A DNA stretch of 64,000 bases, taken from Sthenelais limicola (lineage: Eukaryota > Annelida > Polychaeta > Phyllodocida > Sigalionidae). Position numbers and translations under genes: made by a program. Location: assembly GCA_942159475.1 (NCBI GenBank), contig OW804097.1:38018298-38082297 (forward strand), written 5' to 3'. A model generated the notes under the pieces. That model saw nothing but the letters and a program-made list of their open reading frames with translations. It ran no database searches and had not been told where the DNA came from. Below are positions 17,771 to 51,900 of this stretch, in pieces; the first letter of the stretch is position 1; every line of letters starts with the position of its first letter.

Positions 17771-17960
17771 ATAGGGGACTTGCATTTGCCACAGCGCATG
17801 TCTGTTACAATGCATCCTGGGATGGATTATGTTGAAATCAGATATTGACATTAGACTATTGATAAATAGTCCAATAGAACATGGCATTTTTTCTATAGAT
17901 TTTATTCCCAAAATGCCATGCGAATCAGGATTCAAAATGGCGGCTATGCAATTCCCCTAT
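17771..17960 (-). mobile_element. MITE family C, internally deleted
   Basis: AGGGGACTTGCAT at the left, and the inverted ATGCAATTCCCCT at the right preceded by TCAAAATGGCGGCT. About 190 bp, versus about 350 bp for the full copies. Confidence 0.75.
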
Positions 17961-18366
17961 CGTGTTATATGTGAGGAGAGACGCTTGGCCTTACGGTGGT
18001 GTCAAAAGAGTAGCTTGAGAGAAGATTTACCCTTTGGAAGACGATGGGTATTGAGAGTTAATGCGTACAAACATCCAATTCCAGAAGCCATAGTGGAGTA
18101 AGGATCCCATTCCCACATCTATTGATAGTTTCCGGGGAAATGGTGACGAACATAAGGCCCCGCAGGTCGGAGAGGAGACCTCCATTGGAGATTATTTTGT
18201 TTCATATGAAGGTGGTATCTAGGGGTTGTTTGGTCCTTTTATGTGCGACATATAATAAAGCCTTTCAAGCAAACGCCTCCACTAGATAGCAATAGAAATA
18301 AAAGGGAAGTATATGCAAAACATTTAGATTTATACCATTATTTGTGAAAATAGCGGACTGATATAT
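17961..18366. other. Unassigned intergenic DNA
   Basis: No gene is seen. A 90-codon frame that starts in the MITE and runs to 18101 has no recognisable features. Confidence 0.3.
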
Positions 18367-23059: not shown

Positions 23060-23270
23060 ATATATCAATATTCGACTTTGATAAGGGCATAAAATAAATG
23101 GTGGATGGAACTCGGTACAATTATCTCTATTCATTTAAAAGGAACAAAATACCATGTTCTATTTACACTATCTTAAGGATTAAAAATCTCCCACATTATC
23201 TTCCCTCTCAGGCTCTCCCTTCCCCACCCTCCCCCATCTCCAGCATGCAGGAAATAGAAAATGTAGGCCA

Positions 23271-23617
23271 ATAGGGGGACTTGCATAGCCGCCATTTTGA
23301 ATCTTGATTCGCACGGAATTATGGGACTAATGGTACAGTATAAAATCAATAGAAAACATGTCATGTTCAGCATGGATTATTTATCGATGCTCTAATGTCA
23401 ATATCCATGTTATACATGTTTCCATGACACAAGTCCCCATCTTTCCCATCATGCATTTAGTTAACATAGATCATTTATAAAAGCTATGATATTTCTAAAA
23501 ATATTTTTGCAATTTTCGTTAAACATGTTGCCAAATATATGTAGGTTAGATTTCATCAGAAACTATCCCAGGATGCACTGCAACAGACATGCGCAGTGGC
23601 ACATGCAAATCCCCTAT
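23271..23617 (+). mobile_element. MITE family C, full copy
   Basis: AGGGGGACTTGCATAGCCGC at the left, and CACATGCAAATCCCCT at the right. The inner blocks include TTTTGAATCTTGATTCGCA and CAGGATGCACTGCAACAGAC. TA lies just outside or at the tip on each side, consistent with a TA target duplication. Confidence 0.8.
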
Positions 23618-27913: not shown

Positions 27914-28135
27914 ATGTCATTAATGCCTGGAGACCTTCCATCAATTCTACAGCAGGTGTGCAACACAATAAAGTTTTGTAAATAGTCTTAATTGAATGCT
28001 GTGATGATAATTATCATTCACATCATGCGCTTCACAATTGCTAGCAGGAGTATAAATACAAGCATGAGATCCTCACATTTGTCAAATGGTTGAGTTTGAA
28101 TTAGCGGATCTGTCTAAGGCAGCAATACAAATACA

Positions 28136-28283
28136 ATAGGGGACTTGCATAGCTGCCACTTTGAATCTTGAATCGCATTGAATTATGGGACTAATGGTAC
28201 AGTATAAAATCTATAGAAAACATTCCATGTTCGGCATGGTCTATTTATCAATGTTCTAATGTCAATCTATAGTAAACATGCCA
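28136..28283 (+). mobile_element. MITE family C, left half
   Basis: AGGGGACTTGCATAGCTGCC, followed by the family body up to about GTAAACATGCC. The right half is absent. Confidence 0.7.
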
Positions 28284-28762: not shown

Positions 28763-30688
28763 ATGCAATTCGGAGACCCACTCAGTATCTCTCAGGAGAA
28801 AGCAGACGGTTTTTTTAACGCACCAAACCAAGCTATTGCGAACTTGAAAGCCCCATGTAGAACTAATCCAGTTGAAGATTTTGGCACGAATGTTTTGTAC
28901 GGCGATGATATGTTGGCTATTCCGAATGATCATCCCTCCAATGAAGATCTCAAACTTTCCTTAGAATATACTCAGCATAATATGCGTGCGTATAAGCAGA
29001 AAATGGATGAGGTTATACGTTTTGGCTATGAAACTGATAAGCGTATGTACCGCATTGAGAAAGAAAACCGTATGCTAAGACACACGATAGAAAGTATTGA
29101 AAATATGGCCTTGGAATCGGAATTAGATCGTCGTAGATGTAACCTTATTATCTCAGGTGTTAGAGATCGCCAAGATGAAAACACATTAAAGTTAACAATC
29201 GATATCTGCAGGGAGATAAATCCCCAATTTGGCCTGCCTGATTTCGTCAGCGCTTACCGATTCAAATCGTATGTACAAGGCAGTAGGAAAATCCGTGTCC
29301 AATTCGCTAGTCTAGATGCTAGAAACCACATCTTTGAAAACAGAGCCCTTCTAAGAAAATCTAGATGGTGTAGTCGGGTCTACATTAGTTCCGATATTCC
29401 TGCAACTATACAGGAACGGAAAGACATGCTTATCTCCGTTCAGAAGCATATAAAAGGGATTCCAGATGATGACACACAGGTAGGCCCGATTATTAAAGAC
29501 CATCTTCGTGTAAATGGCATCAGATATAGATATGACCAACTTGAACACCTTGAACCCGGGTATAGATTGTCTGACTCAAAAACCAAGGAAATCGGGGGAA
29601 GAGTTTACTTTCACTCAGAGTTCAGCGTTTTAAGCAATTTCTACCCTTGTGATATGAAGATTCAAGGTTTGTGGTTTAGGAGCGTCGAGCAGGCGTTCCA
29701 ATTTGCGCGTGCAAATGCCCACGGAAGGCCCAACATTGCGAAGGAGGTACACGATAGTAAGGATGCGAAGGGGGCAAAAGGGCTTTCTTACTCAATCAAA
29801 GCAGATCCAGGTTGGGAAGATGACAAGATAGGGGTTATGAGGGTTCTTATCGAAGAAAAGTTCCAACAAAACCCTGATCTCAAGCAAATTTTATTAGACA
29901 CGGGGAAGAAACCTCTTTGCGAGGCCACAAAGGATCCATTTTGGGCTTGCGGCGGTGGAATGCATTCAAAGCTAGTAAAGGAAGGAAAATGCACTGGGAA
30001 CAACGCAGTTGGCCAAATTCTCGAGGATTATAGATCTTTTCTAACTGAAGGCCCGGGCTATGTTAGAAAACAGATTAAAATCACAGTCCCCACAGCTAGA
30101 GCAACAGAAACAAATGCTAATCAATCCCAACTACCAACACAAGCTCCTCCAACTGCTATGTCACAAGGATTAGCCGACTGTTTGAGGGATCAGACAACTC
30201 CCGGCTCAATGGATTGTGACGTAGACGCCGAGTACGCTCCCTCTCTAAATACCGATAACTTTCCGGCTTGCCCTGACCCCGAATATCAATTACTACAGCA
30301 AGCGCAATTCATGAAAAGCGCTCATGGCAACTGGGCCTCAACGGTAGCAAGAGGCGGCAGTAGAAATTCTGGATTTCGTGGTATCCCGAGCAGTGCTAGA
30401 GGAAGAGCAGCGGCTAATAGAAACCAGAATACGAACCGTGAGGTATGGGAATATAGCACCCAATCCTACACCAACAAGAGAGGGAGAACCTTTAGCTCCG
30501 AAGATTCAGTGAGTAAAAGATCAAACAGTCCATTCAGGATCAATAATGTAAATTCTGAGGATGCGGTAAGAAGATTGGAAGAATACAATAATCCTTCCAA
30601 TACCACTACAGATACAATGATAAGTTATGCATCTTTGCAGGATAAGGAGAAGGCAAGGAAAGTAATCGGTGAGCTCGGGCATTTATGA
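28763..30688 (+). CDS. LINE-N1 ORF1: coiled coil, RRM, NADAR (641 aa)
   Basis: Intact frame. Residues about 60-120 form a charged, heptad-rich coiled coil. Residues about 126-205 match an ORF1p-type RRM (start CNLIISGVRD, then KIRVQF), followed by a short C-terminal domain (VYISSDIPATIQERK to VNGIRYRYDQL, about 206-260). Residues about 280-427 form a NADAR (YbiA-like, DUF1768) domain with SNFYP (291-295), SVEQ with Glu309, Trp351, KFQQNP (366-371), LLDTG (377-381), DPFWACGGG (391-399) and GNNAVGQIL (412-420). The tail (430-641) is polar, with an Arg/Gly/Ser segment that may aid RNA binding. The RNA-chaperone role is known for ORF1p-type proteins. NADAR enzymes hydrolyse ADP-ribose linkages. 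Activity here is inferred from retained motifs. Start: first ATG, in-frame, with no earlier extension seen. Confidence 0.9.
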   Translation: MQFGDPLSISQEKADGFFNAPNQAIANLKAPCRTNPVEDFGTNVLYGDDMLAIPNDHPSNEDLKLSLEYTQHNMRAYKQKMDEVIRFGYETDKRMYRIEKENRMLRHTIESIENMALESELDRRRCNLIISGVRDRQDENTLKLTIDICREINPQFGLPDFVSAYRFKSYVQGSRKIRVQFASLDARNHIFENRALLRKSRWCSRVYISSDIPATIQERKDMLISVQKHIKGIPDDDTQVGPIIKDHLRVNGIRYRYDQLEHLEPGYRLSDSKTKEIGGRVYFHSEFSVLSNFYPCDMKIQGLWFRSVEQAFQFARANAHGRPNIAKEVHDSKDAKGAKGLSYSIKADPGWEDDKIGVMRVLIEEKFQQNPDLKQILLDTGKKPLCEATKDPFWACGGGMHSKLVKEGKCTGNNAVGQILEDYRSFLTEGPGYVRKQIKITVPTARATETNANQSQLPTQAPPTAMSQGLADCLRDQTTPGSMDCDVDAEYAPSLNTDNFPACPDPEYQLLQQAQFMKSAHGNWASTVARGGSRNSGFRGIPSSARGRAAANRNQNTNREVWEYSTQSYTNKRGRTFSSEDSVSKRSNSPFRINNVNSEDAVRRLEEYNNPSNTTTDTMISYASLQDKEKARKVIGELGHL

Positions 30689-31317: not shown

Positions 31318-31669
31318 ATATTGTTCTGGGACTGATTTAATCAGTCTTCATATAACCATGCAAATTTCGAATGACAATCTTCCCACTACGTATAATCTTA
31401 TATATCTTGTATGCACACATGCCTTCCCACCTTGCAAGGGCCTGTTGTCGCAGTGCGACCAGGCACCGAGTTTGGTGGGTTGGGCATTTGTCATATGCAG
31501 TGCTTACATAAGTGTGTTGTTGTTTCCCCAGTATAATCCATATAAGAACAGCTGCGACATCCTATTGTTGAATGTAATTGTGTACATAACCGCACTTAAT
31601 TCCTTGCCTAGAGATCGGTTCAATTGCGCAAAGCTATTGTCATATATTTTAACGCACTCCTATGGCTGA
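31283..31669 (+). CDS. Possible small linking ORF (128 aa)
   Basis: An open frame overlaps the end of the SGNH ORF by 35 bases, and its stop lies just inside the start of the endonuclease ORF. The product is hydrophobic in its middle (LVGWAFVICSAYISVLLF) and Cys-rich, with no recognised domain. Its length in AT-rich DNA is more than expected by chance, but there is no family support. Alternatively it is simply the intercistronic spacer. Confidence 0.25.
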   Translation: MSISTMTLYINEYCSGTDLISLHITMQISNDNLPTTYNLIYLVCTHAFPPCKGLLSQCDQAPSLVGWAFVICSAYISVLLFPQYNPYKNSCDILLLNVIVYITALNSLPRDRFNCAKLLSYILTHSYG

Positions 31670-34529
31670 CAAAGTTCTAAAATGGTCAGATCTAAACAAT
31701 ATTAGAGGTTTCAAAGTGGTGCAATATAATATTAGATCTATAATTCCGAAGATTGATGTAATAAGAAATGAGATTCTAACCAACAATATTGACATTATAG
31801 CTTTCACCGAAACATGGTTGAAGACAAGCATACCAGACTGCCTAATTGCTACCAAAGGGTATGATATAATAAGATTGGATCGCAGCTACGGTACAAGAGG
31901 AGGCGGTGTATGTTGTTTTATCAGGTCAGATTATAATTACTGTGTGCCACCAGAAGGTTTAGTTTCTAACAATAATAGCGAAATTTTATCTATCTCACTA
32001 AAAAAAGGAAATGCCCCAACTTTCAAAGTTCTGGTCGCATATAGGCCTCCAGCGGGCAATATTAATGCTTTCATAAATGATTTACAGGACTGCAAGAGAT
32101 CGGTATGTGCCAATTCCAATAAGAAGTGTAACATTACTATATGTGGCGATATGAACATAGACATTTCGGTGAATGACAATAAGAAAAAGGCCTTGATGAA
32201 TTTCTGCAATAATAATAACTTGTCTGTGGCCTCAGACAAAATTACGCGTTATGGGCTACTGTAGAATTCCATCTTGGACCTATTTTTAGTACAAAGCAAC
32301 ATTGATTTCTCCTCTAACATTGTCCCTTATTCCCTGTCAGACCACGAACCGACCCTAATAATATTTAAACGTGTGAACCCCCCTAGGCCCAAGATTCAAA
32401 TAAGAGGGTGAGATCTTAGAAATTATTCAAAAATGAATTTAGATGAGGAACTGAGAAAACATAATTGGGACGCTTATTATATGAAGAACAACCCAGATGA
32501 ATGCTGGTCAGAAATGTTTGGTATATTATCCGATTCAGTAGATGAAATAGCGCCCATTAAACTGTTTAAAGAGAAATCGGTGCCCCCAACATGGTATACG
32601 CCAGAAATTAGAGACTTACATAAGGAGCGAGAAAAACTTTACAAAATAGCAAACAAAACAAAAAAAGCAGAAGATTTAAGGCGTGCCAGGACTACCCGTA
32701 ACGCTTGTAATATATTAATTAAAAGACTGAAATCTGAATATTACAGAAACTTACTTTTCACTCATCGGAAGGATACTAAAAAATTCTGGCGCGTTGTTGG
32801 AGACATCAGTGGTAAAGACGAAAAGATAATTAAACAATTAACAATAAATGATAAGTTAGAAGAAGGGAAGGAAATGGTGAATTTGGTAAACGATTTTTAC
32901 TGTAATATAGGATATGAGATTAATCAAAGAATCCCCGACATAAACAGAACTATCTCTGTGGAGCCTGTGGCGACACCTTGGGTTGATCGTCCTATTGATT
33001 CTAGCATCCTCAAGGAAATAATACACGACATAGAGGGTAATAAGAATTCAGGCTGTAATAACATTAGTACTAAAATCTACAAAGACGCTTTCTCTATCCT
33101 ACATGAACAATTTAGATTTTTATTAAACCTCTCACTAAAAACTGGTATTTTCCCAACTATCTGGAAAACATCGATGGTGAAACTCATACCAAAGGTCTCT
33201 ATCCCTAAATCCCCGTCGGACACTAGACCAATTTCCCTTTGTCATGTTGGCGGAAAAATCTTGGAGAAGATAGTAGTAGCTCAAATTCATGACTATTTGC
33301 GAATTAATAATATAATGAATGATAAACAATTTGGTTTCCAACAGGGACGCTCTACAACCGAGTGCCTAGCAAAATTTATATCCGATATTAATATAAATAA
33401 TTTTAATGATAATTATTCCATAGCTTGCTTCATTGACTTCTCCAAGGCTTTTAACTCGGTAGTACCTGAAATCTTATTAGAAAAGTTAAAGGAATGTAAG
33501 TTCTCCGATCGTATAATCAAATGGATGAAATCATATTTAGACAATAGGAAACAGTACATAAAAAATGATGAGTTTATTTCGAATACTACTGATATAAATT
33601 TCGGTGTCCCTCAGGGATCTGTATTAGGGCCTGTGCTCTACTTAATATACGTTAATGATATTAAACATTTGTCGATAAATAGTACGTGTCTACAATATGC
33701 AGACGACACTGCCCTCTACTGTTTTGGTAAGAGTGTTAATGACTGCGAGGCAAAGATGAACAGCGATATGTGTATCTTCAGCGCCTGGTGCAAATCGAAC
33801 AAACTGCTTGTGAATACTAAGAAGACGAAATGTATGCTGTTTGGTAAGAAGAAATGTAAAATGAAAGACAAAACAATTAATATCAAACTGGACGGAGAAA
33901 TAATTGATCAAGTAGAAAAGTACACTTATTTAGGATTAATTATTGATCACCATTTATCAATGTTACCTCATCTAAACAATGCAATAAGCGTTATAAATCA
34001 GAAACTTTTTATCTTCAGAAAAATCAGATTCAATTTGACTAACAAAGCAGCGTTAGACATAGTAAAATCCAAAGTACTCTCATTATTCGATTATGGTTTA
34101 TTTTCACTATACGGACTGAATAAATGTAATATAAAAAAGTTGCAAACACTGCAAAATAAAGCTCTGAGAGCGGCCATGCCCCATCTTAACGATGTGCGCA
34201 ATGAAGTACTATGGAAAGAATGTAATATCATGAATATAGAAAATAGGATTTTATTTAACATCAGTAAATTAGCCCATAAAGAAGTATATATTATGAATAA
34301 TTATGATGAACCTGCGAGACATACAAGAAGGGCTTTCGCCCCTACTCTGAGACCGCTACAAGCAAAAACAGAAGTTGAAGCAAAATGTTTATATAATAGT
34401 ATCAGAGTGGTCTGGAATAAATTACCATCTGATCTCCGACTCCATGGTGACCCACTAGTATTTAAATCTAATCTTAAAAAACACCTGCTATCAAATCAAC
34501 AGATTGTATTAGCACAACTTCTTGGCTGA
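31662..34529 (+). pseudogene. LINE-N1 ORF2: endonuclease and reverse transcriptase, two stops
   Basis: One frame runs the whole length but contains TAG at 32262-32264 and TGA at 32409-32411. The AP-type endonuclease shows QYN (Asn23), TETW (Glu50), AYRPP (127-130) and GDMNID (Asp163, Asn165). The SDH motif lies between the two stops. From Met 32433 the reverse transcriptase has LIPK, IDFSKAF (catalytic Asp335), GVPQGSVLGP (391-400) and QYADD (Asp424, Asp425), then a thumb and the C-terminal WNKLPSDLR motif. All catalytic residues I can see are kept. The two stops are single-base lesions or would need readthrough. It would perform target-primed reverse transcription in the nucleus. Confidence 0.9.
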
Positions 34530-34994: not shown

Positions 34995-35144
34995 CATTAT
35001 ACGAAGCAAACACACAATAAATGTTTGGAGGAGCTTTTATTCAACTTTTGACAATAAAACTTGATAAGATTGTCTTGAGCAGTTCAGAGTAATGTATTTT
35101 CATCAACATCTTTTTGCCATAAGAGTGTCTGTTAAAACTTAGAA
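34995..35144 (-). repeat. YR-outer repeat B2
   Basis: Distal end of the element on the minus strand. It matches 35341-35490 except at two positions. It starts CATTATACGAAGC and ends AAAACTTAGAA in plus orientation. Confidence 0.9.
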
Positions 35145-35204
35145 GCCCTGTATGTTATACATGTTTTTTAAAACAGATAATAGTAATAGGTGAGGGCGGG
35201 TGGG

Positions 35205-35343
35205 GCTTTGAAAACCGATAGAGTGATTGAACGTGCGTCTCGCGCCAGCTTATATATGAGCGGGTTACGTAATAGGCAATCAGGTGAGAGATGAGAGGTT
35301 TACCGCGCGTATAATGACCATTCATGTTTCATGAACCCACCAT
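35205..35343 (-). repeat. YR-outer repeat A2
   Basis: It matches 43838-43976 with a single difference (GAGATGAGAGG versus GAGAGGAGAGG). It shares the bases CAT (35341-35343) with the start of B1. Confidence 0.9.
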
Positions 35344-35490
35344 TATACGACGCAAACACACAATAAATGTTTGGAGGAGCTTTTATTCAACTTTTGACAA
35401 TAAAACTTGATAAGATTGTCTTGAGCAGTTCAGAGTAATGTATTTTCATCAACATCTTTTTGCCGTAAGAGTGTCTGTTAAAACTTAGAA
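35341..35490 (-). repeat. YR-outer repeat B1
   Basis: Internal copy of the B repeat, lying between the recombinase ORF and A2. Together with A2 it forms the circle-junction-like B1/A2 boundary. Confidence 0.9.
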
Positions 35491-35507
35491 TAGCCAGTCA
35501 TAATGAT

Positions 35508-36433
35508 TTAGACTCTTGATAATGCTCTGAAGACAGGGCAAGTTGCAAAATCGTCCTCGTATTTATGGAACACTGATGATTTCCAGAGTCCAAACTCTCT
35601 TATTCTTTGCTGTGCTGACGGGTCTTTCTGGGACACGAATGTCACAGCCCCTCTACGGATTCCGTGTAGTGTGTAGCCCTTATCGTGGATGCCTGCTCTC
35701 GCTAGTCCATCCTTCCACATTCTGTTAATGGTCGCCATTGCCATTGGTGTGCGGTCCCTGTACATGAGGAGTGGGTCGGCCTGGTTTCTTGTGGGCGTTT
35801 CCTCCCTCATCTCCGAGAATGCAGAGACGGGGCACAGAGGTGAGGTGGCAATTGGATTGTCCCTTTATGTGTAGTACTTTGATGTGTTTTCGACCATTTA
35901 TGATTGATGGCCATGTTATCCTGCGATATCGTAATGTCGCCTCTGGTCAGGTGTCTCGTCTTATCAAATGCTCTGGACCTGTATGCTGAAAAATTGCTCT
36001 GTCTCAAGAATGAGAAAAACATAAGTGTAATGCAGCATTTGAAAGTTTTAAAGTCACGTTGTCCCTCATTTGCTTTTATTACTGCTAGTAGGACCCTTGG
36101 CGCTGCTGCCTTTGCTGGAGAGGGGGTGTGACGAACTGTTTTGTCTATAGCCTTTAAAGCATTTTGCACGTGGTGATGTTTAAAAACGTTTTCAGCAATG
36201 CCCATTTTCTTATATACCACAGAAAGACTTGATATGTAATTTCGAATAGTAGCTGGTGAGCGGACCCTGCTTGCTAAAAATTCAATATAGGCACAGATGA
36301 GTTGTTCATCAATCATTTTAAAGTCATGACCACGAGGGGCGAGAAATTTAATTAGACCCCTGATGGCCGCATTATGGTTAGCCAGTGTGCCGGGCCTTAC
36401 TGCCTGTTGTTGTCGCGTCTCCGCCTTCCTCAT
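35508..36433 (-). pseudogene. YR-outer tyrosine recombinase, frameshifted
   Basis: The N-terminal part (36433 to about 35830) has the SAM-like DNA-binding region and the first catalytic Arg (SFLRQSN). After a frame change near 35830-35845 (consistent with a two-base TG slip in a TGTG run), the C-terminal part carries TLHGIRRG (His-x-x-Arg) and KYED (candidate Tyr). The enzyme family integrates a circular double-stranded DNA by site-specific recombination instead of an integrase. Broken by the frameshift; catalytic residues otherwise present. Confidence 0.85.
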
Positions 36434-36460
36434 CCAATAGTCAATTGGGCCTACAATAGA

Positions 36461-37104
36461 TCATAGATAGTCAGCAAAATCATGATAGTCAGGAGTAACT
36501 TTGAACATAACAAATTTATTATCAGCAATGATGCGACGAGCAGCTGACATGTCTGTTTGAGAGAGAAATGCTCTACTGAGTTTATCCGGTATTTCCATGT
36601 TAACACCGGGCACATGTTCATAGATGACCTTTATCTCGTTCTTAGCTTCGAGGAACCAGACTGCCCTAGCGACTGCATTTAGGACTAGGTCTCTGCCTCT
36701 GTGGTTGCTAAGAGCGCAAATGGTGGCCATATTGTCACATTGAACCTTGACTGTATTACCGGGGGCGACTTGATCGACAAACGCTCTTATGGCAATTAGG
36801 CAGTTAATACATTCAAGCTGCGATATGTTGAATGCATTGGAGAGGTTTCTAGGGTACCTATACATGTAGGCCCTATGGCCGTCAGTCGCGCCCCCGCCTG
36901 TAAGGCATGAGTCGGCTGCAATGTTAGTTGTTACACAGTTCGAGTTGATGAGTGCCCGCCCATTGAATTGATTGAGAAATTTCTTGAACCAATTCAGATC
37001 GGCTCTGATTGTTTTGTCAATCTCGACCCTCTTTGTCTTGACCTCGCGCAGCGCTCCTAATAACCTGTTCATGAACAGTCGAGCTGGGGGAACTGCCTTG
37101 CTTA
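36461..37104 (-). pseudogene. YR-outer RNase H part of pol, cut by insertion
   Basis: This is the C-terminal half of the RT-RNase H polyprotein. The segment AADSCLTGGGA carries the first acidic residue, QLECINCLIAI the Glu, VKVQCDNMATI the next Asp, and MEIPDKLSRAF ends the domain. It is separated from the RT half by the inner element. An apparent extension upstream to 37267 is the antisense of the inner A1 repeat and is not native. Confidence 0.85.
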
Positions 37105-37308
37105 TATGTATAGTTGGCATCACAACGCCCATACTGCGACCCACGTGGATATGTTTACCTCCGACTATGACGTCACTCGGAGTTCCCCGCGCGCTCAACC
37201 AATAGGAGCGCATGGAAGCTTTCCTCGTCAAGTGCCACGCCCACGTTCGCCAGTTCAAATGTTTCACTCGACTAGTGAAGAACTATATATTCTCGCTTGA
37301 AAATTTTT
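37105..37308 (+). repeat. YR-inner repeat A1 (5' end)
   Basis: It starts TATGTATAGTTGGCATCAC and ends CGCTTGAAAATTTTT. It contains GACGTCAC and CCAAT motifs and a TATATA stretch near 37285, so it probably holds the promoter. The gag-like ORF starts seven bases after it. Confidence 0.9.
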
Positions 37309-37315
37309 CAAGTAT

Positions 37316-38152
37316 TTGAACTCATTGGACATCATGTCGCCTTCTAAAGTCAAGCATTGCGATGTATGTGAAGAATCGCACGAGGGTACGGTTGGTGAAT
37401 CGTGTACGAGATCCATGAACAATCGTATGGCAAAGTTAGAGGGACTAGTGTCAAATTTGGTACGTACCGTGGAGGACAAGGTGGTAAACAAGCTGCCGTC
37501 ACCGTTGGGTGCTCAAGCTTCAACAAGTAAAACTGATAGTGATCCTGAAATCGATTTTACTGGGCGTCAATCGAGGGCATCGAGTGTCGAGAGTTCTATT
37601 TATAATGTTCGTGGGTCTGGTCATCGTGCAAGACATCGTTCCAGATCTACGTCCAGGGCTCGTACCAAGCCTTTTGATCATGCCAGCCAACTCGACAAGG
37701 GTGAGGATATTGAATCATTTGAGTCATTGCTCTTGTTGAACTTGCGTCTAATTGCTAAATTGGTGGTGGATGAACGCCCCTACGCCGAGATTGCTGGTGT
37801 CGTAAATCATTCAGTCACTATGTGCGAGAAGGCCAAATCGCAGGTGTATAATCTAAAGGCTAGTGTTCTGTACGATAAATGTGTGAGAGCCAGGGCGAAC
37901 AAGGAAGGTCTAGACGCATTTAGCAATGTCAAACAGGAAGAAATCTTGAGATTTTATGCCTTTGAGAATTCAAAAAAGGCTGTCGAAGCGGCTACTCGTA
38001 AGAAGGTAAACAAAGACGTCAAGGTGTGTTTCAAGTTCAACTCGGCTGCCGGCTGCACGAAATCGCCGTGTGGATTTCCACACAAATGCTCCAACTGCCT
38101 GTCATCGGACCATTCAGCGAGAAACTGCCATGTCGGAAAGAGTATTAAATAG
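37316..38152 (+). CDS. YR-inner gag-like protein (278 aa)
   Basis: Intact frame with an Arg/Ser-rich low-complexity stretch (about residues 95-118) and a C-terminal Cys/His cluster (CFKFN, GC, C, H-x-C-x-x-C, H, C within about 242-272). This arrangement is typical of the nucleocapsid-like ORF of DIRS and Ngaro elements. The likely role is RNA binding and packaging. Met at 37316, or the next Met at 37334, could be the start. The stop is a single TAG, after which the same frame stays open into pol. Confidence 0.85.
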   Translation: MNSLDIMSPSKVKHCDVCEESHEGTVGESCTRSMNNRMAKLEGLVSNLVRTVEDKVVNKLPSPLGAQASTSKTDSDPEIDFTGRQSRASSVESSIYNVRGSGHRARHRSRSTSRARTKPFDHASQLDKGEDIESFESLLLLNLRLIAKLVVDERPYAEIAGVVNHSVTMCEKAKSQVYNLKASVLYDKCVRARANKEGLDAFSNVKQEEILRFYAFENSKKAVEAATRKKVNKDVKVCFKFNSAAGCTKSPCGFPHKCSNCLSSDHSARNCHVGKSIK

Positions 38153-38218
38153 GAATTAGTTAGTGATCGGGGTAATTTCAACAATGTTTCTCATAATTCG
38201 TCGGAAAATTGTGTTGAT

Positions 38219-40246
38219 ATGAATTTTGTTGATTCGAACATTTCACTTGGAGACACCGGAAGTGGTGAATCCAAGATGGCGGAGGAGGTTGTCAAGGTGG
38301 ACTTTTCAACCCTTCGTGAAAGTGAAAATTCTTCTAATATTCCCTCGATTACTTCTCATCTTCCGGAATTTGTCGCCGAATGTATGTACAATGACATTTT
38401 CTCTGATATTTCCGATTTTGTTGATGCTGGGTCACCCGATAGTGGTGATTTCCTAATTTTTAACGCTCCGATTTCTCCGGGTGGCTGTATCGTCCCCGTT
38501 TACGGTTGCTGTGCATATGGGACATGTAGTTGTTCCCATCTTCTTGCTGAGGTTACTACCCAGTTAAAGCCTTGTAGGTTTGCATACCTTTTATTCGCAC
38601 AGGGTAATACTATGGTTGATAAATATATTCAAGTGTATTTCGGTATTTGTGACGGTTTTGACATTGTCGATTCTCCCATAGAAGGTTATGATTGTGAAAA
38701 TTACGCCTCTATTTTAGAGCCTGAAGCCAAAGAAAAAATGGATAGAATAGTTAGTAACGAATTGAACGAAGGTTTCATATCAATATCTAATGTTAAACCT
38801 GTATGTATTCATTCTTTGGGAGCTGTACATAAGCCGGATGGAGGTATAAGACCTATCACGGACTGTTCTCGTCCTTTAGGGGTATGTGTAAACGAGCATT
38901 GCTCGAGTCTGGTACGTACTTTCTCTTACAAATCTATCGAAAATGCCATAGAATTGGTAGAAAATAATTCTTTCATGTCGGTTGTAGACATTAAATCGGC
39001 ATATCGTGCAGTGCCTATCAACCCTGCTCACAGGATATATTGTGGGTTCAGATGGACTTTAAATGGCCAAGAGAAATATTTTTACGATAATAGACTTTGC
39101 TTCGGCCTTCGAACAGGTCCTTGCTATTTTGATGATATTTCAAACTTTATCACTGACTCTATACTTAATGTATTCCATGTTCCTGTGATCAATTACCTTG
39201 ACGATTTTTTTACATGTGCAAATTCTATTGAGATGTGTAGAAATGCTCGTGATATTGTTGTCAAAATCCTAAGATATTTAGGTTTTTACGTGGCGTGGCA
39301 CAAGGTTACTTCCCCGAGCTCTTCATGCCGTTACCTAGGCTTCACCATCGACTCAAGGGAGATGACACTGTCTATGCCTCAGGAAAAAATCGCCAAACTC
39401 TACAAAATTCTAAAATCGTTAGAAAACAAGTCATCAATCTCCAAATCCCAGCTTGAAAGTATATGTGGCTATGTCAGCCATTGTGCTTGTGTCTTCAAGG
39501 GAGGAAAAACATTCTGTCGGCGCATGTTCGACTTATACAAGCTTATGATTGCTAAGAAGCTAAAGCAATCAAATATCTCTACAGCCTTTCGTCAAGATCT
39601 TCAGTGGTGGAAATCGTTTGCAGCATCTTTCAATGGTAGGCGTCTAATCGAGAAACCATGTTGCGATATTCCCATGGTATCTGACGCCTCTTCAAAGGGT
39701 TTCGGCGTATTTTGTGGCATCGACTGGGTTGCTGGAGTCTGGGATGACTCTAAATTACCTTTTTCCTTCCCTGAATGTGGTCACCTTGTCTCACGCCCGA
39801 GTGAAGATGGGATTGCAGTAAATATAAACATCCAGGAGCTGTATCCCATCTTGGTAGGCGTGAGGAGATGGTGTAAATTTTTCAGAGGAAAAGCTGTAAT
39901 ATGTTTCATTGACAATACACAAGTCATAGCAATGCTCACGAATGGCTCTAGCTCTAGCCCCCTAGCCATGCAGTGGTTGTACGAATTATATTGGCTGACA
40001 TTTATATTTGACATGGAATTAATTCCTAAGTATATTAACACAAAAAATAATCTTATTGCGGATACTCTCTCTAGACTGCCATATATTTATAATTCACCTG
40101 GAAGCTTGTTGTGTCTTTCCCAAGCCAGGTTGTGTTGTTCTGAAAGATTTTTATCTGATATTCCTAGGGCTCAGCAAATGGAGGGAAAGAGTCAACTACC
40201 TACAAACCCTATCTGTGACATCGTCGACTCTCACACAAAGAACTAG
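38219..40246 (+). CDS. YR-inner reverse transcriptase and RNase H (675 aa)
   Basis: Intact. RT about residues 170-400: GAVHKPDGGIRPI, VVDIKSAYR (Asp257), FGLRTGPCYF, NYLDDFF (Asp328, Asp329) and RYLGF. RNase H about 490-655: MVSDASSKGFG, NINIQEL, CFIDNTQV and IADTLSRL give the D-E-D pattern. It is in the same frame as the gag-like ORF, separated by one TAG (38150-38152) and 22 open codons. Its 3' end overlaps the recombinase frame by about 190 bases, a known DIRS feature. Likely functional in isolation. Confidence 0.9.
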   Translation: MNFVDSNISLGDTGSGESKMAEEVVKVDFSTLRESENSSNIPSITSHLPEFVAECMYNDIFSDISDFVDAGSPDSGDFLIFNAPISPGGCIVPVYGCCAYGTCSCSHLLAEVTTQLKPCRFAYLLFAQGNTMVDKYIQVYFGICDGFDIVDSPIEGYDCENYASILEPEAKEKMDRIVSNELNEGFISISNVKPVCIHSLGAVHKPDGGIRPITDCSRPLGVCVNEHCSSLVRTFSYKSIENAIELVENNSFMSVVDIKSAYRAVPINPAHRIYCGFRWTLNGQEKYFYDNRLCFGLRTGPCYFDDISNFITDSILNVFHVPVINYLDDFFTCANSIEMCRNARDIVVKILRYLGFYVAWHKVTSPSSSCRYLGFTIDSREMTLSMPQEKIAKLYKILKSLENKSSISKSQLESICGYVSHCACVFKGGKTFCRRMFDLYKLMIAKKLKQSNISTAFRQDLQWWKSFAASFNGRRLIEKPCCDIPMVSDASSKGFGVFCGIDWVAGVWDDSKLPFSFPECGHLVSRPSEDGIAVNINIQELYPILVGVRRWCKFFRGKAVICFIDNTQVIAMLTNGSSSSPLAMQWLYELYWLTFIFDMELIPKYINTKNNLIADTLSRLPYIYNSPGSLLCLSQARLCCSERFLSDIPRAQQMEGKSQLPTNPICDIVDSHTKN

Positions 40247-41087
40247 ACAGTGGTCGGTTTTTTCTGATTTTTTATCAGAAAATGACATTATATGCCAGAG
40301 TATTTCTACAGACATTTTGTGTATGTATGCAGCATATTTATCGACAATAATGAAACATTCTTCTGTGATTACCTACCTATGTGGTGTATCATTTGGGGCC
40401 AAGATTCGAGGTATTACCTGTGCTTCAATTTCTCATCCTGTGGTAAAATCTTTGCTGAGGGGCATCGCCAAACTACCAGGGGCGGCAGTCTCCCCAGCAT
40501 CGCCTCTTCTACCTATGCATCTCATAAAAATCCGTGATTATGTGAACTTGAAGGACATTGAGCAATTTTTTGCTTGGTCAATTTTTATTTTTTTATTCCG
40601 CACAATGCTGAGAGTGGGTCATGTCATCATTTCTGACCATTCATTATTGAGGAAAGATATTACTTTCCATAGTTGGGGTATGGCGTGTGTGATTAGGTCT
40701 ACCAAGACATCGTCTACCCCCTTTGTGATCCCAGTAGCCAAATCTTCTTCTAAGGAGCTCTGTGCGGTTTATTACATGAAAAAGATATTTTCATACTCAT
40801 CGATTCCGGCATCGTCATGTGCATTTACTTTACCAGATGGATCTGTACTTTCATATGCCTATATTAACAATTTATTATCAGATTTGTGCTCAAGAGCTTG
40901 ACTATCTGGGCGTATATCTATGCACTCCCTGAGGCGTGGTTCCGCGACATATATGGCTTCAAAAGGGGCGTGCCTATCTGACATAAAAAACCGAGGTAAA
41001 TGGCGTAGTTCTTGTGTGGAAAAATACATTTCTCCTTCGTTGGATCATGAACTGAAAGTGGATGCCTTGATTTCATCGTCATTGTAG
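40056..41087 (+). pseudogene. YR-inner tyrosine recombinase with one TGA
   Basis: The frame is open from within the pol ORF to TAG 41085-41087 except for an in-frame TGA at 40899-40901. The N-terminal core-binding domain spans about 40250-40530. The first catalytic Arg is in TMLRVGHV. Past the TGA the same frame gives HSLRRG (His-x-x-Arg) and EKYIS (candidate Tyr). The TGA removes the last catalytic residues, so this copy probably lacks a functional recombinase unless read through. Confidence 0.85.
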
Positions 41088-41102
41088 TGTGTTTGGGCCT
41101 TT

Positions 41103-41179
41103 GGTGTTTATTAAACTGCTCTGCACTCCCAAACGGCACTACTGCTTTCCTCTCTTCATTACACGCCGTCGCACGTATG
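41103..41179 (+). repeat. YR-inner repeat B1
   Basis: It starts GGTGTTTATTAAACTGCTC and ends GTCGCACGTATG. It matches 41406-41482 except at one base and overlaps A2 by TATG. Confidence 0.9.
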
Positions 41180-41379
41180 TATAGTTGGCATCACAACGCC
41201 CATACTGCGACCCACGTGGATATGTTTACCTCCGACTATGACGTCACTCGGAGTTCCACGCGCGCTCAACCAATAGGAGCGCATGGAAGCTTTCCTCGTC
41301 AAGTGCCACGCCCACGTTCGCCAGTTCAAATGTTTCACTCGACTAGTGAAGAACTATATATTCTCGCTTGAAAATTTTT
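41176..41379 (+). repeat. YR-inner repeat A2
   Basis: It matches A1 (37105-37308) with one substitution (CCACGCGCG versus CCCCGCGCG). Confidence 0.9.
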
Positions 41380-41405
41380 TCTTATGTATTATATGTATTT
41401 GTTAG

Positions 41406-41482
41406 GGTGTTTATTAAACTGCTCTGCACGCCCAAACGGCACTACTGCTTTCCTCTCTTCATTACACGCCGTCGCACGTATG
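41406..41482 (+). repeat. YR-inner repeat B2 (3' end)
   Basis: Terminal copy of B. The last bases, ATG, are shared with the target sequence on the other side. Confidence 0.9.
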
Positions 41483-42712
41483 GTTAATTGATCCCACTAC
41501 GCTTTCAAGTTGGGTGCGAGACATATGGTCCTTATTCAAGAAATCGTTTATTTTCGTGAGGAAATCATTTACTTTATCCTGGGGAATTCGAATACACATT
41601 TCCGACAGGTCGATTTGTATGCCTAGAAATCTACAGATTTTCGTGGGGGCTTGTGTTTTGGCATACGCAATAGGGAGGCCTAGTTGGCGAACCAGATATA
41701 TGACCTCTCTAAATTGTGCGTGAGCATCCACGTGTTGGGGAGAAATTGTAATGGCGTCATCGAGATAAATGATAGTTAGTATACCCCTTTTCTCCAAAGC
41801 CCTTGAGATAAAGTTAGCCACTCGTTGCATATAGACACTCGACATTCTGCTCCCGAAGGGCATGGCGGTGTCTATATAGTATTGGTCATTGTGTCTAATT
41901 CCCAGTAGGGGCCAGTCATACGGACACGCTGTAAAATTTCTGTACGCCCTTTCAATGTCAATTGTTGATAGCAAGGTGTTGAAATTGTATTTGCGAGCAG
42001 CCTCGACTGCCATCTCCACTGTGGGGAGGCGGTGAGATATATAGGTGCCAAATAAACAGTTTTTCTCAATGGCGGCATTAATTCCCTTGCCGTCAGGGTA
42101 TGAATAGTCAATGATGATTCTTCTCTTATTGTGGTCACTTTTAGGTCTTGACATAATGGGAGAGATATTTACCCAGGGGGCGAATGGAGGATCATGGAAT
42201 GGTCCCTTCAGAGCCTTACAATCTAGTTCTTTATCAATGAAGCTTTGGATCGCTTCGGGGTACTCAGTGGCTGATCTATGATTAGGTGTTATTGTATTTC
42301 TAGTATCGGGTGGCGGGCCTCTATATTGAAGGGGGAAACCGAACTGTACAAACGTGATTAGCCACTGGTCATCGTTGTGACCGGTGGCGAGTTGACGCCA
42401 GTTATTTATATCCAATGAAGACTGGATAGGTATTTTCGCCCCGTATGCATTATGAGAGCCAGACGATCTTACAATATCATAGATTGCGATGGTTTCAGAA
42501 CCACTTTGAGTGGTGGAGTGTGGCCACTCACACCTTTCCGAGGCGATGTCTTTAAGTATTTGACTTGTTGGTTTTTCAAATATATTTTCTTCGTTAGCTG
42601 GGTTTGTTACGTTGTTATGCTCCCCATTAATGTCGTAGTACTCTCCCCCATCTCCAACACCCGCCCCGTTATCAATTAACTCCAATGTCGCATTGTATAC
42701 AGGGATAGTCAC
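41483..42712 (-). pseudogene. YR-outer reverse transcriptase half of pol
   Basis: Starts at Met 42712 and is cut by the inner element at its C-terminus; the final codons of the open frame (to 41462) come from the inner repeat. RT features: SRPKSDHNKRRIIIDYS, STIDIERAYR (Asp252), AMPFGSRMSS, IIYLDDAI (Asp318, Asp319), RFLGIQID. The rest of the protein continues at 37104-36461. The frame before the insertion has no stops, so the pol gene was probably intact when interrupted. Confidence 0.9.
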
Positions 42713-42738
42713 AAGGGGTAGAGCGGGGGAAGTAGGAC

Positions 42739-43815
42739 CTAATAGTTTTTTGATGGGTGTTTATCCTCCTTATCAGTGGGTTTACCCTTATTTTTGTACT
42801 TTGCTTTATCATCAGAATTGGATTGCTTCATTGCATGAATGGCGGTCTGCCGCCGGTTGCAATCCTTAGATGCATGAGAATATTCGGCCCCGTTTAGGGC
42901 CGAACAGAATGAGCACACATGGTTGAATTCAATGTTATTATTCTTATGGGCTGACTTGCTTTTGCATTTACCCTCATTAAATTCAGGACAGGGAATCGAT
43001 TTGGTAGATATTTTGGACGGTTTGGCTTTTAGGTATTGATTAACGCGTTCCCTAGCGATTCTATCGTCGTCTGTCCAGGCCCAGCGGCCCTTCGCTATAT
43101 TAGCGATGACCGCATTGGACCACTTTCTCACTGTATGCCATTCGTGGCTTTCGCTGTCTTCAGCAATCTGACCAACATGATAGATAATTCGACGCGATTC
43201 ACGAGTTTTATCCTCCTGCAGAGCCATCTCAGTAAGGCCCCATACATGCATGTTAAAGTCTAAGTCTTCGGGGTGGGACTCTTTCTTTATACTTCTCTGA
43301 ATATCTCTTGGGAGAAATGCAAATGGCCTATACAGTTTGGTATTGTCAGAATGCTTGCGTTTATATCTACCTTTATGCTTGCTGAAAGTAGGAGACACCA
43401 TTTTCTCAGCCTCTGATAAATCTTTCTCTATCGATGTAAGCGAACTTGAACGGGAGCTAGCCTTAGACTCACTACTTGACCTACGTTCCCTTCTTCTAGA
43501 CCTCTTATGTTTAGGGGAACTGGTCCTAGGACGGGAGCTGGCCGACCTGGACCTATTACGAGATGAACTTTTGTTACCTTTCCTAGTAGGAGAATGGCTG
43601 CGGCTAGGCTCCCGTTTCTTCTCTGCATAGGCTTTCTTCAGGCCTTGAATCTCGGCTGCAAGGCGTTCGTTGGCGGTAGCTTGTTCGTCAAATCTGGTGG
43701 CCAGTAGTGCCACAGATTGAGTCAAAGTTGGCTTCTTTCCGACCTTATCAGGTGGGGTCTCTTTGTCCTCGTCAGACATGGTGAGGCGTGACTGCAGCAA
43801 AGCTTTTGGACCCAA
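42739..43815 (-). CDS. YR-outer gag-like protein (358 aa)
   Basis: Intact frame. Residues about 65-135 are strongly Arg/Ser-rich (SRSHSPTRKG, SRNRSRSASSRPR), and a Cys/His cluster lies near 285-335 (CPEFNEGKC, HVCSFC, HASKDC). It is followed after 26 bases by the RT ORF in another frame. This is the expected nucleocapsid-like first ORF of a DIRS-order element. The RS-type domain could interact with splicing factors or RNA; that is inference. Confidence 0.85.
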   Translation of the reverse strand: MGPKALLQSRLTMSDEDKETPPDKVGKKPTLTQSVALLATRFDEQATANERLAAEIQGLKKAYAEKKREPSRSHSPTRKGNKSSSRNRSRSASSRPRTSSPKHKRSRRRERRSSSESKASSRSSSLTSIEKDLSEAEKMVSPTFSKHKGRYKRKHSDNTKLYRPFAFLPRDIQRSIKKESHPEDLDFNMHVWGLTEMALQEDKTRESRRIIYHVGQIAEDSESHEWHTVRKWSNAVIANIAKGRWAWTDDDRIARERVNQYLKAKPSKISTKSIPCPEFNEGKCKSKSAHKNNNIEFNHVCSFCSALNGAEYSHASKDCNRRQTAIHAMKQSNSDDKAKYKNKGKPTDKEDKHPSKNY

Positions 43816-43837
43816 CGTAGTGTAGCGACCAGCCCGA

Positions 43838-43976
43838 GCTTTGAAAACCGATAGAGTGATTGAACGTGCGTCTCGCGCCAGCTTATATATGAGCGGGTTA
43901 CGTAATAGGCAATCAGGTGAGAGAGGAGAGGTTTACCGCGCGTATAATGACCATTCATGTTTCATGAACCCACCAT
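43838..43976 (-). repeat. YR-outer repeat A1 (5' end)
   Basis: Upstream end on the minus strand. It matches 35205-35343 with one difference. The gag-like ORF begins 23 bases inside. Confidence 0.9.
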
Positions 43977-45530: not shown

Positions 45531-45878
45531 ATAGGGGAGTTGCATGTCTCACTGCGCATGTCTACTGCAGTGCATGCTGGGATGGATTCTGTTGAAATCA
45601 GACATACTAATATTTGGCAACATTTTTATCGAAAATTGTAAGAATGTTTTCACCAATATCAGAGCTTGTATAAATGATCAATGGAAGCCAAATGCATGAT
45701 GGGAAAGATGGGAACTAGTATTATGGAAACATGGATAACACATGAATTTTGACATTAGAGCATTGATAAATAGTCCATGCTGAACATGACATGTTTTCTA
45801 TAGATTTTAGACTGTACCATCACTCCCATAATTCCATGCGAATGAAGATTCAAAATGGTGGCTATGCAAATCCCCTAT
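45531..45878 (-). mobile_element. MITE family C, full copy, reversed
   Basis: AGGGGAGTTGCATGTCTCAC at the left and GTGGCTATGCAAATCCCCT at the right. It is the mirror orientation of the 23271 copy, with all body blocks present. Confidence 0.8.
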
Positions 45879-45963
45879 TGTATTCTACTCTATTACACTT
45901 CTGAGCTTGCATAAGTATTTTGGACATAATTTTTCTTTCGTACAAGGTTCAAGATGCACATTT

Positions 45964-48920: not shown

Positions 48921-49576
48921 GTGAGTGCTGATAACGCACTTATTAAAGTGTTCGGCTCCAACATCAAGATCAACGGCATTCACAACTGGCACGACCAGTT
49001 GGATGGCGTCCCGACTGAATTACTCCTTTCTCAGCTCTCAAAGATACAAGATGATAACACGATAGTTTTCTTCTCGTCCGACAACCCATTGTCCAACCAT
49101 TATAATTCTCCATTCTTTCTCAACGGCCACAGTTTCGACCATGTAGAACAATACCTATTCCACCAAAAGGCCAAGATTGCTGGTGACCCCTCAAACCTGC
49201 ATTAGCCCTAAAAACAAAAGACCGGGTGGAATGTAAGAGGTTTATGGGGAATGTTTTTGATGAAAAACACAGATGGCCCATCCATAGGCAGGAGGTCCTG
49301 CTTAAGGCATTGCGATCAAAGGCAAGACACCACGTAGTAAGAGATTATCTTCATTCAACAGGAGACAGAGTCATTGGGGAAGCATCCCCAAACAACAAAA
49401 CATGGGGGATTGGTCTAGGTCTCGACAACCCCAATGTTTTAGATGTGAGCATATGGCCTTCCGTAGGCAATTTGGTCGGAAAAATGTGGATGAAGGTCCA
49501 TGACGGAATTAGAAGAGATTCTCCACAAGACGCAACCAAGGAAATGTCCATGGAATCGGGCCAAGAGCACGATTAG
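48921..49576 (+). pseudogene. LINE-N2 ORF1 remnant with NADAR domain, frameshifted
   Basis: The first part (48921-49205) begins in an ORF1 C-terminal domain (IKINGIHNWHDQLDG) and enters NADAR: FFSSDNPLSNHYNSPFFL, then DHVEQYLFHQKA, with the Glu of the VEQ motif. A frame change near 49190 leads to the second part (to 49576): KRFMGNV, RWPIHRQEVLLKALRSKA, LHSTGDRVIGEASPNN, KTWGIGLG, GNLVGKMWMKVHD. These match the rest of the NADAR fold (W, K, TG(D), W-G-x-G, GN-x-x-G). No start is visible because the 5' end is missing. The order C-terminal domain then NADAR is the same as in LINE-N1 ORF1. Confidence 0.85.
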
Positions 49577-49625
49577 TGAATAAGATATCTAGAAGTGAAT
49601 AGTTGTGTTCCTTGTGTAGTTAAAA

Positions 49626-51757
49626 ATGCAGCAAACTGATATTGAAAACTTTGGCACTTCTACTAAGCTAATTTCTCTTAATATAAATGGTTTAAATAAC
49701 GCCAGAAAGAGAAAAGCCATATTTTCCCAGTTTAGCCAGTTACAGGATATCATTGTGACCCTACAGGAAACCCACTCTGTGAAGGAGAAAGAAAAAATAT
49801 GGCAATCCCAGTGGGGAGAACAACTCCTTTTTTCACATGGCACCTCAGCATCGAGAGGAATCATGTTTCTTGTTCCAAAATCCTTAAAAAAGTGTATTAC
49901 TTCTTATGAAGCTGATCCTAATGGAAGGTGGTTACACCTTACATTAAATATAAATAACACGGTTTTTTGTATCCTAACTGTGTATGCCCCAAACAATGAC
50001 AAACCAAAGGAACAGACTGCCTTTTTAAATAAGGTGGAAAACATCTTAAGTCTAATCAAGTATGACAGGTTAATTGTTTTAGGAGATCTGAACGCAGATA
50101 TCACGTACAAACCGTCCAGTGTAGCAAGTAATAAAACTGGCTGACTTCATTAATGCACTAGACTTAGACGACATCGTCAGCGCAAGAAGTCAAGGCCTGC
50201 CGGACATAACCTGGTCAAGACTGCAACAAAATTCTAGACTTGACTATATTCTTGTATCCAATAACATGTCCAATAGGGTTCACAAATGTGAAGTTGTGTC
50301 TAACATCCACTCTGATCATAATGAAGTTAGGATCGATATGTATATGGGTGTATCAGCCAGAGGAAGGGGTTATTGGAAATTTAACGCCAAACTTTTACTT
50401 GATGACATTTTTTGTGAATAATGTGGAAAGAGAATATGAACGTACTATGAATGAAGTACTTGGTCCTAAAATCAAATAGGAATTCTTTAAGCTTAGAGTC
50501 AGAGAGCTTGCAATCTCCAGATGTAGTGAGATGGCGAAGTGTAGAAAACTTAAGAATCTTATGTTAAAGGAGAAACTCGATGTATTAGATAAAAAAAGAA
50601 GGTTAACTATGGAAGAAGTGAATGAAAGAAAAGTCATTTCTCAAGAATTAAGGGAAATAGAAATGGTGAAGGCAGAAGGAGCTCTAATAAGATCAAAAGC
50701 TAAATTGGCCACGGAAGGAGAAAAACCATACAAATACTTCTGCGCGTTAGAAAAGTTTAAAGCTGGGAAGAAAGTAATTTCAATTCTCAATGTAAATGGT
50801 TCTGTCACTTCTAAACAGAGTGAGATATTAGATGAAGGTAAAAACTATCATTCTTCTCTCTACAAAAAAGCACCAGTCAGTTCCAAAGCTGGTGAAGAAT
50901 TTTGTAACCCAGATCATGCCGTCCAACTTGATGAGCAGAACAACAAGGTATTATGTAGAGAAATAACTCATGAAGAAGTCGAAAAAGTGTTAAAAACTTT
51001 CAAGAAAAGCTAATCGCCTGGATGCGATGGTTATATGGTTGAGTTTTATCAGTATTTATGCCATTTAGTTAAACCGCTGTTTATGAGTATGTTAGAAGCT
51101 TGTCTGGTCGACGGTGTAATGATGGATAACCAAAAAAGAGGTGTCATTAGCGTCATTCCCAAGAAGGATAACGATTTACTTCTGATAAAAAATTGACGTC
51201 CAATTACCCTTCTTAACTTAGATTATAAACTCATCTTTAAAACCATTTCCAACAGACTTGCGTCCTCTCTTCCTAACATTATTAATGAGGATCAACTCGG
51301 TTTTGTAAAGGGAAGATTTATAGGGACAGCGATCAGAAAGATCAATGATATTCATTCCATTCTGGAATATAAGAAGGAAACTGGGATTATAGCTTCTGTA
51401 GAACATTCTAAGGCATATGATTCTGTAGATTGGTCCTTTATCAGAAAAGTGTTAGAATCGCACAATATTCATAATACCTTTATTGAATGGATTGAGACCC
51501 TTCTCTTTAATTCAAAAGCGACCTTTACTAATAACGGTTTTTCTTCTCAATGGTTTCCTGTTGAAAAGGGGGTCAAACAAGGGGACCCAATATCATCTTC
51601 CTTAATTTTAATTGCAGTCGAGAGACTCGCTGAGCAGTTAAGAATTAGCGAAAATATACAAGGTATTAATCTTGAAGAAAATGATGCGAAGATTGTACAA
51701 TTCACAAACGATCTTACGTTAACTGTTAGAAATGAATTCTCCTTCCCTATGGGCATT
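49626..51757 (+). pseudogene. LINE-N2 ORF2: endonuclease and partial reverse transcriptase
   Basis: It starts 50 bases after ORF1. AP-endonuclease motifs: SLNINGLN, LQETHS, VYAPNND, LGDLNAD. After a frame change near 50140: DITWSR, SRLDYILVS and HSDHNEV. The RT continues in that frame with stops at 50477-50479 (TAG), 51011-51013 (TAA, before SPGCDG) and 51194-51196 (TGA, before RPITLLN). The motif-A Asp is changed (VEHSKAYDS) and the FADD-type motif reads FTNDL. The protein then ends at the foldback, so thumb and C-terminal regions are missing. Inactive. Confidence 0.9.
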
Positions 51758-51900
51758 TGAGTGCAATCATTGCACTCACTATTGCGTTCACATAGCGCAA
51801 TGATTGTGCAATGTGACCGCAATGGGTGTAACCACTTATTGCGCTATGTGACCGCAATAGCCATTGCGCAATGAAAACGCAATGTGACTGCAATAGAACC
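51758..51900. repeat. GCAAT-rich foldback
   Basis: A 21-base palindrome TGAGTGCAAT-C-ATTGCACTCA (51758-51778) is followed by ATTGCG...GCGCAAT (51781-51801), which pairs with 51838-51858 with one mismatch. About ten ATTGC/GCAAT pentamers occur in 140 bases. It interrupts the LINE-N2 reverse transcriptase. Confidence 0.85.

Follow-up and report, generated by a model that had tools for sequence, protein, structure and literature searches.

The window analyzed here is a stretch of 64,000 nucleotides from the polychaete Sthenelais limicola (assembly GCA_942159475.1, contig OW804097.1, positions 38,018,298 to 38,082,297 of the forward strand). It contains a long interspersed nuclear element (LINE) in which the first open reading frame (ORF1) encodes a NADAR domain. 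Downstream of ORF1 are a separate frame, ORFx, and ORF2, which encodes an apurinic-type endonuclease (EN) and a reverse transcriptase (RT) (Table 1). A stand-alone host gene is rejected for the focal copy, as ORF1, ORFx and EN-RT follow in order on one strand.

Table 1. Coordinates in the window of the NADAR-bearing LINE and of the second NADAR with its L1-type LINE.
Feature	Coordinates	Strand	Remarks
ORF1, 641 amino acids (aa), intact	28763..30688	+	Order: N-terminal helix/coiled coil, basic middle domain (putative RNA recognition motif (RRM)/C-terminal domain (CTD)), NADAR, variable tail
Predicted long helix, probably coiled coil (ORF1 aa 60-134)	28940..29164	+	Single-sequence AlphaFold2
NADAR domain, ORF1 aa 278-433	29594..30061	+	Pfam match aa 285-427 = 29615-30043
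Arg316 (CGT) at catalytic Lys position	29708..29710	+	Arg in 7/7 ORF1 relatives
ORFx, 210 aa	30685..31317	+	ATG overlaps ORF1 stop as ATGA; motifs DSRG, GIC, DGxH (presumably SGNH/GDSL-like)
ORF2 start, apurinic-type endonuclease	31662..32264	+	Pfam Exo_endo_phos 1.1e-5; closed by in-frame TAG (32262)
ORF2 remainder, reverse transcriptase with GVPQGSVLGP and YADD	32433..34529	+	Pfam RVT_1 2.8e-36
Second NADAR, N-terminal piece	49050..49202	+	Pfam NADAR E=0.059 (ORF 48921-49205), below cut-off
Second NADAR, C-terminal piece, other frame	49226..49573	+	Pfam NADAR 3.4e-10, above cut-off; own profile 1.1e-6
Endonuclease of decayed L1-type LINE	49626..50144	+	Pfam Exo_endo_phos 1.5e-9; PDB L1 endonuclease 8e-10
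RT piece of L1-type LINE (GVKQGDPISS)	51197..51757	+	PDB L1 ORF2p 1.2e-23; best R2 3.9e-8

The NADAR domain of ORF1

Pfam NADAR (PF08719) matches ORF1 with E=9.7e-25 and 88.2 bits (curated cut-off 35.1), and NCBIfam TIGR02464, 'riboflavin biosynthesis intermediates N-glycosidase', is matched above its cut-off. The curated Pfam match leads us to reject an artefact or chance ORF. The fold of the domain is that of NADAR. An earlier note, made from the letters of this stretch, had placed a NADAR domain in an uninterrupted LINE ORF1 frame; this is confirmed, and both the NADAR/DUF1768 profile search and the structural check that it proposed (the latter judged by fold and residue identity) came out in its favor. 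The catalytic Glu of S-x-E (E309) and D-x-x-W (D391, W394) are present. At the position of the catalytic Lys, seven positions after the Glu, the focal copy has a basic residue, Arg316, in place of the usual Lys.

That NADAR can occur in a LINE ORF1 is already known. In Crassostrea gigas, a Repbase query identified it in several Tx1 LINE families as part of ORF1, with a suggested role in processing RNA intermediates, and a single lineage of Ectocarpus Gypsy elements has it in Pol (PMC12477816), as the earlier note had anticipated in supposing that retroelement NADARs may exist in databases. The oyster elements have in common with the focal one a NADAR/YbiA-type domain in ORF1. However, the focal RT is not L1-like, and copy number, selection and the active site are not addressed in the available part of that paper (PMC12477816). 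The Ectocarpus case is likewise one of capture by a retroelement, but involves a long terminal repeat (LTR) element, the N-terminal part of Pol and a brown alga, and its blastp matches are nearly all bacterial (PMC12477816). Our literature search covered open-licence PMC articles (other journals and Repbase were outside its scope). Among those examined, no other paper deals with NADAR in retroelements, and none reports LINEs that combine NADAR with a Jockey-like RT, their amplification, selection on the domain, or the lineage with Arg and Ala in the active site described below.

Other NADARs occur in different settings. DarT1-associated antitoxins, YbiA and the Phytophthora protein 8bau are stand-alone proteins or antitoxins in which the catalytic residue is Lys, not Arg, and 8bau has an Arg that contacts the pyrophosphate (PMC11543638). 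The focal NADAR is not part of a DarT toxin operon, its neighbors being ORFx and the LINE EN-RT. Polyproteins of invertebrate RNA viruses likewise carry NADAR in the replication protein of an RNA-based parasite (PMC9503650), although this is a viral replicase and not a LINE ORF1. Matches of the focal domain in BFVD are to yellow head virus, gill-associated virus and Wenling nido-like virus 1.

A Pfam NADAR search of the 1.13 Gb S. limicola genome yielded 5561 first-look candidates, and scoring was confined to the 150 best; every one of these 150 exceeds the curated cut-off, and 148 lack an internal stop. From these 150 best-scoring matches we examined 20 loci at 8.4 kb (L103-L122) and 20 at ~1 kb (L123-L142), so the counts lean towards intact domains. 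Ten residues (N292, E309, K339, W351, K366, F367, W394, G412, N414 and G417) are found in all 40 loci and three others (T380, E387 and R424) in 39. This core persists across families whose NADARs share ~30% identity. Asn replaces the catalytic Asp in L112, L119 and L121, which are LINEs with GVAQGS in the RT, and in two further loci.

Position 316 is Lys in 119 of 120 relatives, compared with 20 of the 40 loci; the others have Arg (18), Glu (1) or Ile (1). Position 395 is Gly in 26 loci and Ala in 14. All 20 Lys316 loci have Gly395, and Ala395 occurs solely with Arg316, four further Arg316 loci having Gly395. Seven ORF1 relatives in the focal family, picked by similarity over the whole of ORF1 and not by NADAR score, all combine Arg316 with Ala395 and all keep E309, K339, W351, K366, T380, E387, D391, W394, G412, N414, G417 and R424. 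Four different codons encode their Arg (CGT, CGA, CGG and AGG), a pattern that suggests selection to keep this residue and not decay. Decay of the focal copy is rejected as the source of Arg316.

Element structure, copies and reverse transcriptase class

The helix predicted in ORF1 has block values of the predicted local distance difference test (pLDDT) of 64-82 at aa 61-110, falling beyond, and weak, sub-threshold Pfam matches of coiled-coil type were found in the relatives L105 and L114. Neither RRM nor Transposase_22 was matched in ORF1, and the basic middle domain is only putatively assigned. The tail of the focal ORF1 contains four RG dipeptides. The three ORFx motifs, which we take to be SGNH/GDSL-like, are invariant in the alignment (8/8 rows). 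A weak match to Lipase_GDSL_2 was obtained for ORFx of L106 (E=0.0086, below cut-off), and none to GDSL for ORFx of the focal copy, L108, L114, L116, L122 or L143. None of the relatives inspected shows the ATGA overlap at the end of its ORF1. Type II LINE ORF1 proteins (coiled coil-RRM-CTD) share the predicted coiled coil, and no NADAR is named for them in the available part of PMC4120745. ORFx recalls the esterase-type ORF1 of CR1/L2 elements, in which, however, the esterase lies inside ORF1 and is described in vertebrate groups only (PMC4120745).

The focal ORF2 is a 955-codon frame (31662-34529) with two internal stops and without CCHC at its end; the remainder listed in Table 1 starts at the first ATG past the second stop (TGA, 32409-32411). 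CpG observed/expected is 0.74-0.82 in the element ORFs versus 0.48-0.52 in the two flanks measured, which would fit a young insertion.

In searches of PDB the focal RT matches R2 at 2.6e-7 and does not match L1 ORF2p at E<=10, whereas the RT of the L1-type element in the window, as a control, finds L1 ORF2p at 1.2e-23. This test does not separate the relatives placed in group B below, one of which, L115, scores 5.5e-13 against L1 and 2.6e-12 against R2. The focal element has the layout of the Jockey superfamily (Jockey/CR1/L2), with EN and RT in one ORF of ~900-1000 aa, a length typical of that superfamily, and no C-terminal zinc knuckle. GVPQGS...YADD in the RT is presumably a further mark of Jockey-superfamily LINEs.

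The focal RT or EN was matched downstream on the same strand in 19 of the 20 longer loci (none at L110; at L104 the order is disturbed, with the EN match beyond the RT match). An ORF2 frame of 905-1002 aa is present in 12 of the 20, that of L117 (925 aa) reaching the end of the stretch. Two groups can be distinguished. Group A, with Arg/Ala, comprises the focal copy, L104, L107, L108, L114, L120 and L122, and ORFx was matched in five of these six relatives (not L104). Group B (L103, L105, L109-L113, L115, L118, L119 and L121) has Lys, except for Ile in L110, and no ORFx match was found in its loci. L106, L116 and L117 have ORFx, yet carry Lys at 316.

With the focal ORF1 as query, 73 matches were obtained, including the copy in the window (69 of 5580 candidates scored); 54 of the 73 rows in the match table lack an internal stop. 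The closest is a full-length sister, L143, 98% identical and located on C5 (the window is on C4), in which ORF1 is intact and ORF2 is divided over two frames. Others are full-length at 82% and 71-72%, partial at 54-97%, and, in many cases, full or partial at 38-52%. The matched ORF1 stretch is free of stops in all seven of L143-L149. LINEs with NADAR before a variable ORF1 tail are numerous and diverse in this genome, and the focal copy is one of them.

A second NADAR lies about 20 kb away, directly before the EN-RT of a decayed L1-type LINE. Its two frame-shifted pieces span 48921-49576, and with the decayed ORF2 the whole stretch covers 48921-51760 (+). The N-terminal piece, which retains the active-site Glu and Lys, scores E=0.022 with our own profile, below the inclusion threshold. 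As the focal NADAR precedes a non-L1-like RT, the domain stands before two unlike LINE ORF2s in this window. The L1-type element fits the published remark on oyster Tx1 LINEs.

Groups A and B are recovered whether the tree is built from NADAR or from RT, and NADAR has therefore largely traveled with the RT. The trees are not fully congruent: L116/L117 fall with group A by NADAR (90/81) and with group B by RT (Shimodaira-Hasegawa-like approximate likelihood ratio test, SH-aLRT, 81). Fourteen of 15 LINE NADARs form one clade (89/73), and monophyly of all 15 is not rejected (approximately unbiased (AU) test, p 0.161). The L1-type NADAR groups with 8bau and the bacterial/phage long-loop forms (99/92), apart from the other LINE NADARs. 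Trees that unite it with the LINE rows are not rejected either (p 0.118); in an earlier, smaller data set the focal and L1-type domains as one clade gave p 0.045, and for the C-terminal half alone the preference is reversed (p 0.87). Given these conflicting tests, we do not claim an independent origin.

Selection on NADAR and its candidate roles

The ratio of replacement to silent substitution rates (dN/dS) was computed by the Nei-Gojobori method (NG86) for 19 pairs of element copies. NADAR synonymous sites are saturated in nine pairs and unchanged in one; the nine computable pairs give 0.07, 0.39, 0.04, 0.05, 0.09, 0.14, 0.03, 0 and 0.25. For the five with a proportion of silent differences (pS) of 0.3-0.74, NADAR dN/dS is 0.07, 0.04, 0.05, 0.03 and 0.25, and the values computable for other parts are 0.08 and 0.07 (ORF2), 0.04, 0.05 and 0.05 (ORF1 N-terminal part) and 0.34, 0.31 and 0.24 (ORF1 tail). 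Between the focal copy and L144, the proportions of replacement and silent differences (pN/pS) are 0.061/0.787 in NADAR, 0.060/0.830 in the middle domain, 0.091/0.641 in the coil and 0.163/0.578 in the tail. Compared with its sister L143, the focal NADAR has one replacement and five silent changes. NADAR is under purifying selection and constrained like the RT where this is measurable. Neutral evolution, named in the earlier note as an outcome that would contradict it, is not what we find, as NADAR and ORF2 have equally low dN/dS where both are computable. Strong selection in related copies suggests that the domain matters for the spread of the element.

ORF1 proteins of LINEs bind and coat element RNA, as is established for L1. 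If the ORF1 protein of this element does so, the tethered NADAR would sit on element RNA and near the cDNA. It could then act as an N-glycosidase, removing ADP-ribose from guanine of the RNA, the nascent cDNA or the target site, and would undo modification by host ADP-ribosyltransferases. We consider this plausible and assign it a probability of about 0.4. NADAR-family proteins act on guanine-linked ADP-ribose in DNA (PMC11543638, PMC11125620), and only NADARs among hydrolase families reversed guanosine ADP-ribosylation in RNA, leaving phosphate ends untouched (PMC11833690). The latter result does not help the variant in the earlier note in which the domain processes an NAD-derived cap. Guanine-ADP-ribosylating proteins of the pierisin/CARP-1 type occur in butterflies and clams (PMC11543638).

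Several observations weigh against removal of ADP-ribose by the LINE domain. D391 is kept in 35 of the 40 loci, with Asn in five, and Asn also occupies this position in the L1-type piece. In two loci the residue at 316 is neither Lys nor Arg. The pyrophosphate-contacting Arg of 8bau corresponds, in our mapping, to Y343, and none of the 40 loci has Arg there (one has Lys). In the selection analysis, both comparisons that involve the focal ORF1 among the 19 pairs are saturated in NADAR, and two pairs have higher ratios (L110/L111, 0.39 at pS 0.043; L119/L115, 0.25 at pS 0.716). The K95R variant of the NADAR from E. coli C7 still hydrolyzes in vitro and does not rescue cells from DarT1 (PMC11543638), and by analogy the Arg lineage may be weak or altered. 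With Arg316 and Ala395 in the focal lineage and no 8bau-type Arg in the LINE versions, substrate or rate probably differs from that of bacterial antitoxin NADARs. The Arg/Ala swap and the absent pyrophosphate contact argue for a change of specificity; a role in binding is the less likely reading.

The loss of the pyrophosphate Arg, which suggests altered ligand contacts, could also indicate an enzyme that cleaves N-glycosidic bonds in small molecules (soluble NAD or ADP-ribose derivatives serving as host immune or stress signals, or damaged nucleotides) rather than in nucleic acid. The TIGR02464 match agrees with this, as does the proposal that phage NADARs target mainly low-molecular-weight ADP-ribose derivatives (PMC9503650). 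However, the ORF1 protein that carries the domain is expected to be RNA-bound, and macromolecular targets are favored for NADARs of eukaryotic RNA viruses (PMC9503650). We consider a small-molecule substrate unlikely. The substitutions at positions 316, 391 and 343 listed above could instead reflect a domain that is not an enzyme, and holds ADP-ribose, NAD-like or guanine-containing ligands for assembly of the ORF1 protein or choice of RNA. This seems to us improbable, given that 39-40 of the 40 loci retain E309, W351, K339, E387 and W394 and that Lys can be replaced by Arg in vitro (PMC11543638).

Removal of host PARP marks from the ORF1 or ORF2 protein is more doubtful still; we know of no NADAR that acts on protein ADP-ribosylation, and the activity in the papers examined is on guanine (PMC11543638, PMC11125620, PMC11833690). 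A captured structural spacer or hitch-hiker without its own function, which the modular, domain-swapping nature of LINE ORF1 proteins (PMC4120745) might permit, is very improbable and already disfavored by dN/dS of 0.03-0.07 in four of the five informative pairs, versus 0.24-0.34 in the adjacent tail, and by retention of the same core across the divergent families.

Removal of ADP-ribose from guanine could form part of a counter-defense, in which hosts would use guanine ADP-ribosylation of RNA or cDNA as a weapon against retrotransposons, LINEs would carry the de-ADP-ribosylase, the Arg/Ala lineage would be tuned to a different substrate, and L1-type LINEs would have captured a second, separate NADAR. 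This extended scenario is doubtful. If it is true, the LINE NADAR implies that the host uses guanine ADP-ribosylation against retrotransposons. Little is known of what NADARs do in animals, and vertebrates are without them (PMC11125620, PMC11833690, PMC9303266). A dN/dS near 0.05 in amplified LINEs points to a need for NADAR in retrotransposition, most simply for reversal of ADP-ribosylation. The elements offer a compact, testable system, with an ORF1 protein that carries its own putative eraser and natural Lys/Gly and Arg/Ala versions of the active site.

Neighboring elements in the window

A tyrosine-recombinase element on the minus strand (34995-43976), presumably Ngaro/DIRS-like, adjoins the 3' end of the LINE. 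Its split direct repeats pair 34995-35144 with 35341-35490 (148/150 alike) and 35205-35343 with 43838-43976 (138/139). Within it, the plus strand carries Gag-like and RT ORFs (37316-40901; RVT_1 7.2e-15 at 38219-40246) that apparently belong to a nested second element. A repeat of ~136 bp that occurs on both strands closely precedes the LINE at 28130-28266 and recurs at 45749-45884, 23269-23402 and 17844-17966. It is possibly a short interspersed nuclear element (SINE) or a miniature inverted-repeat transposable element (MITE).
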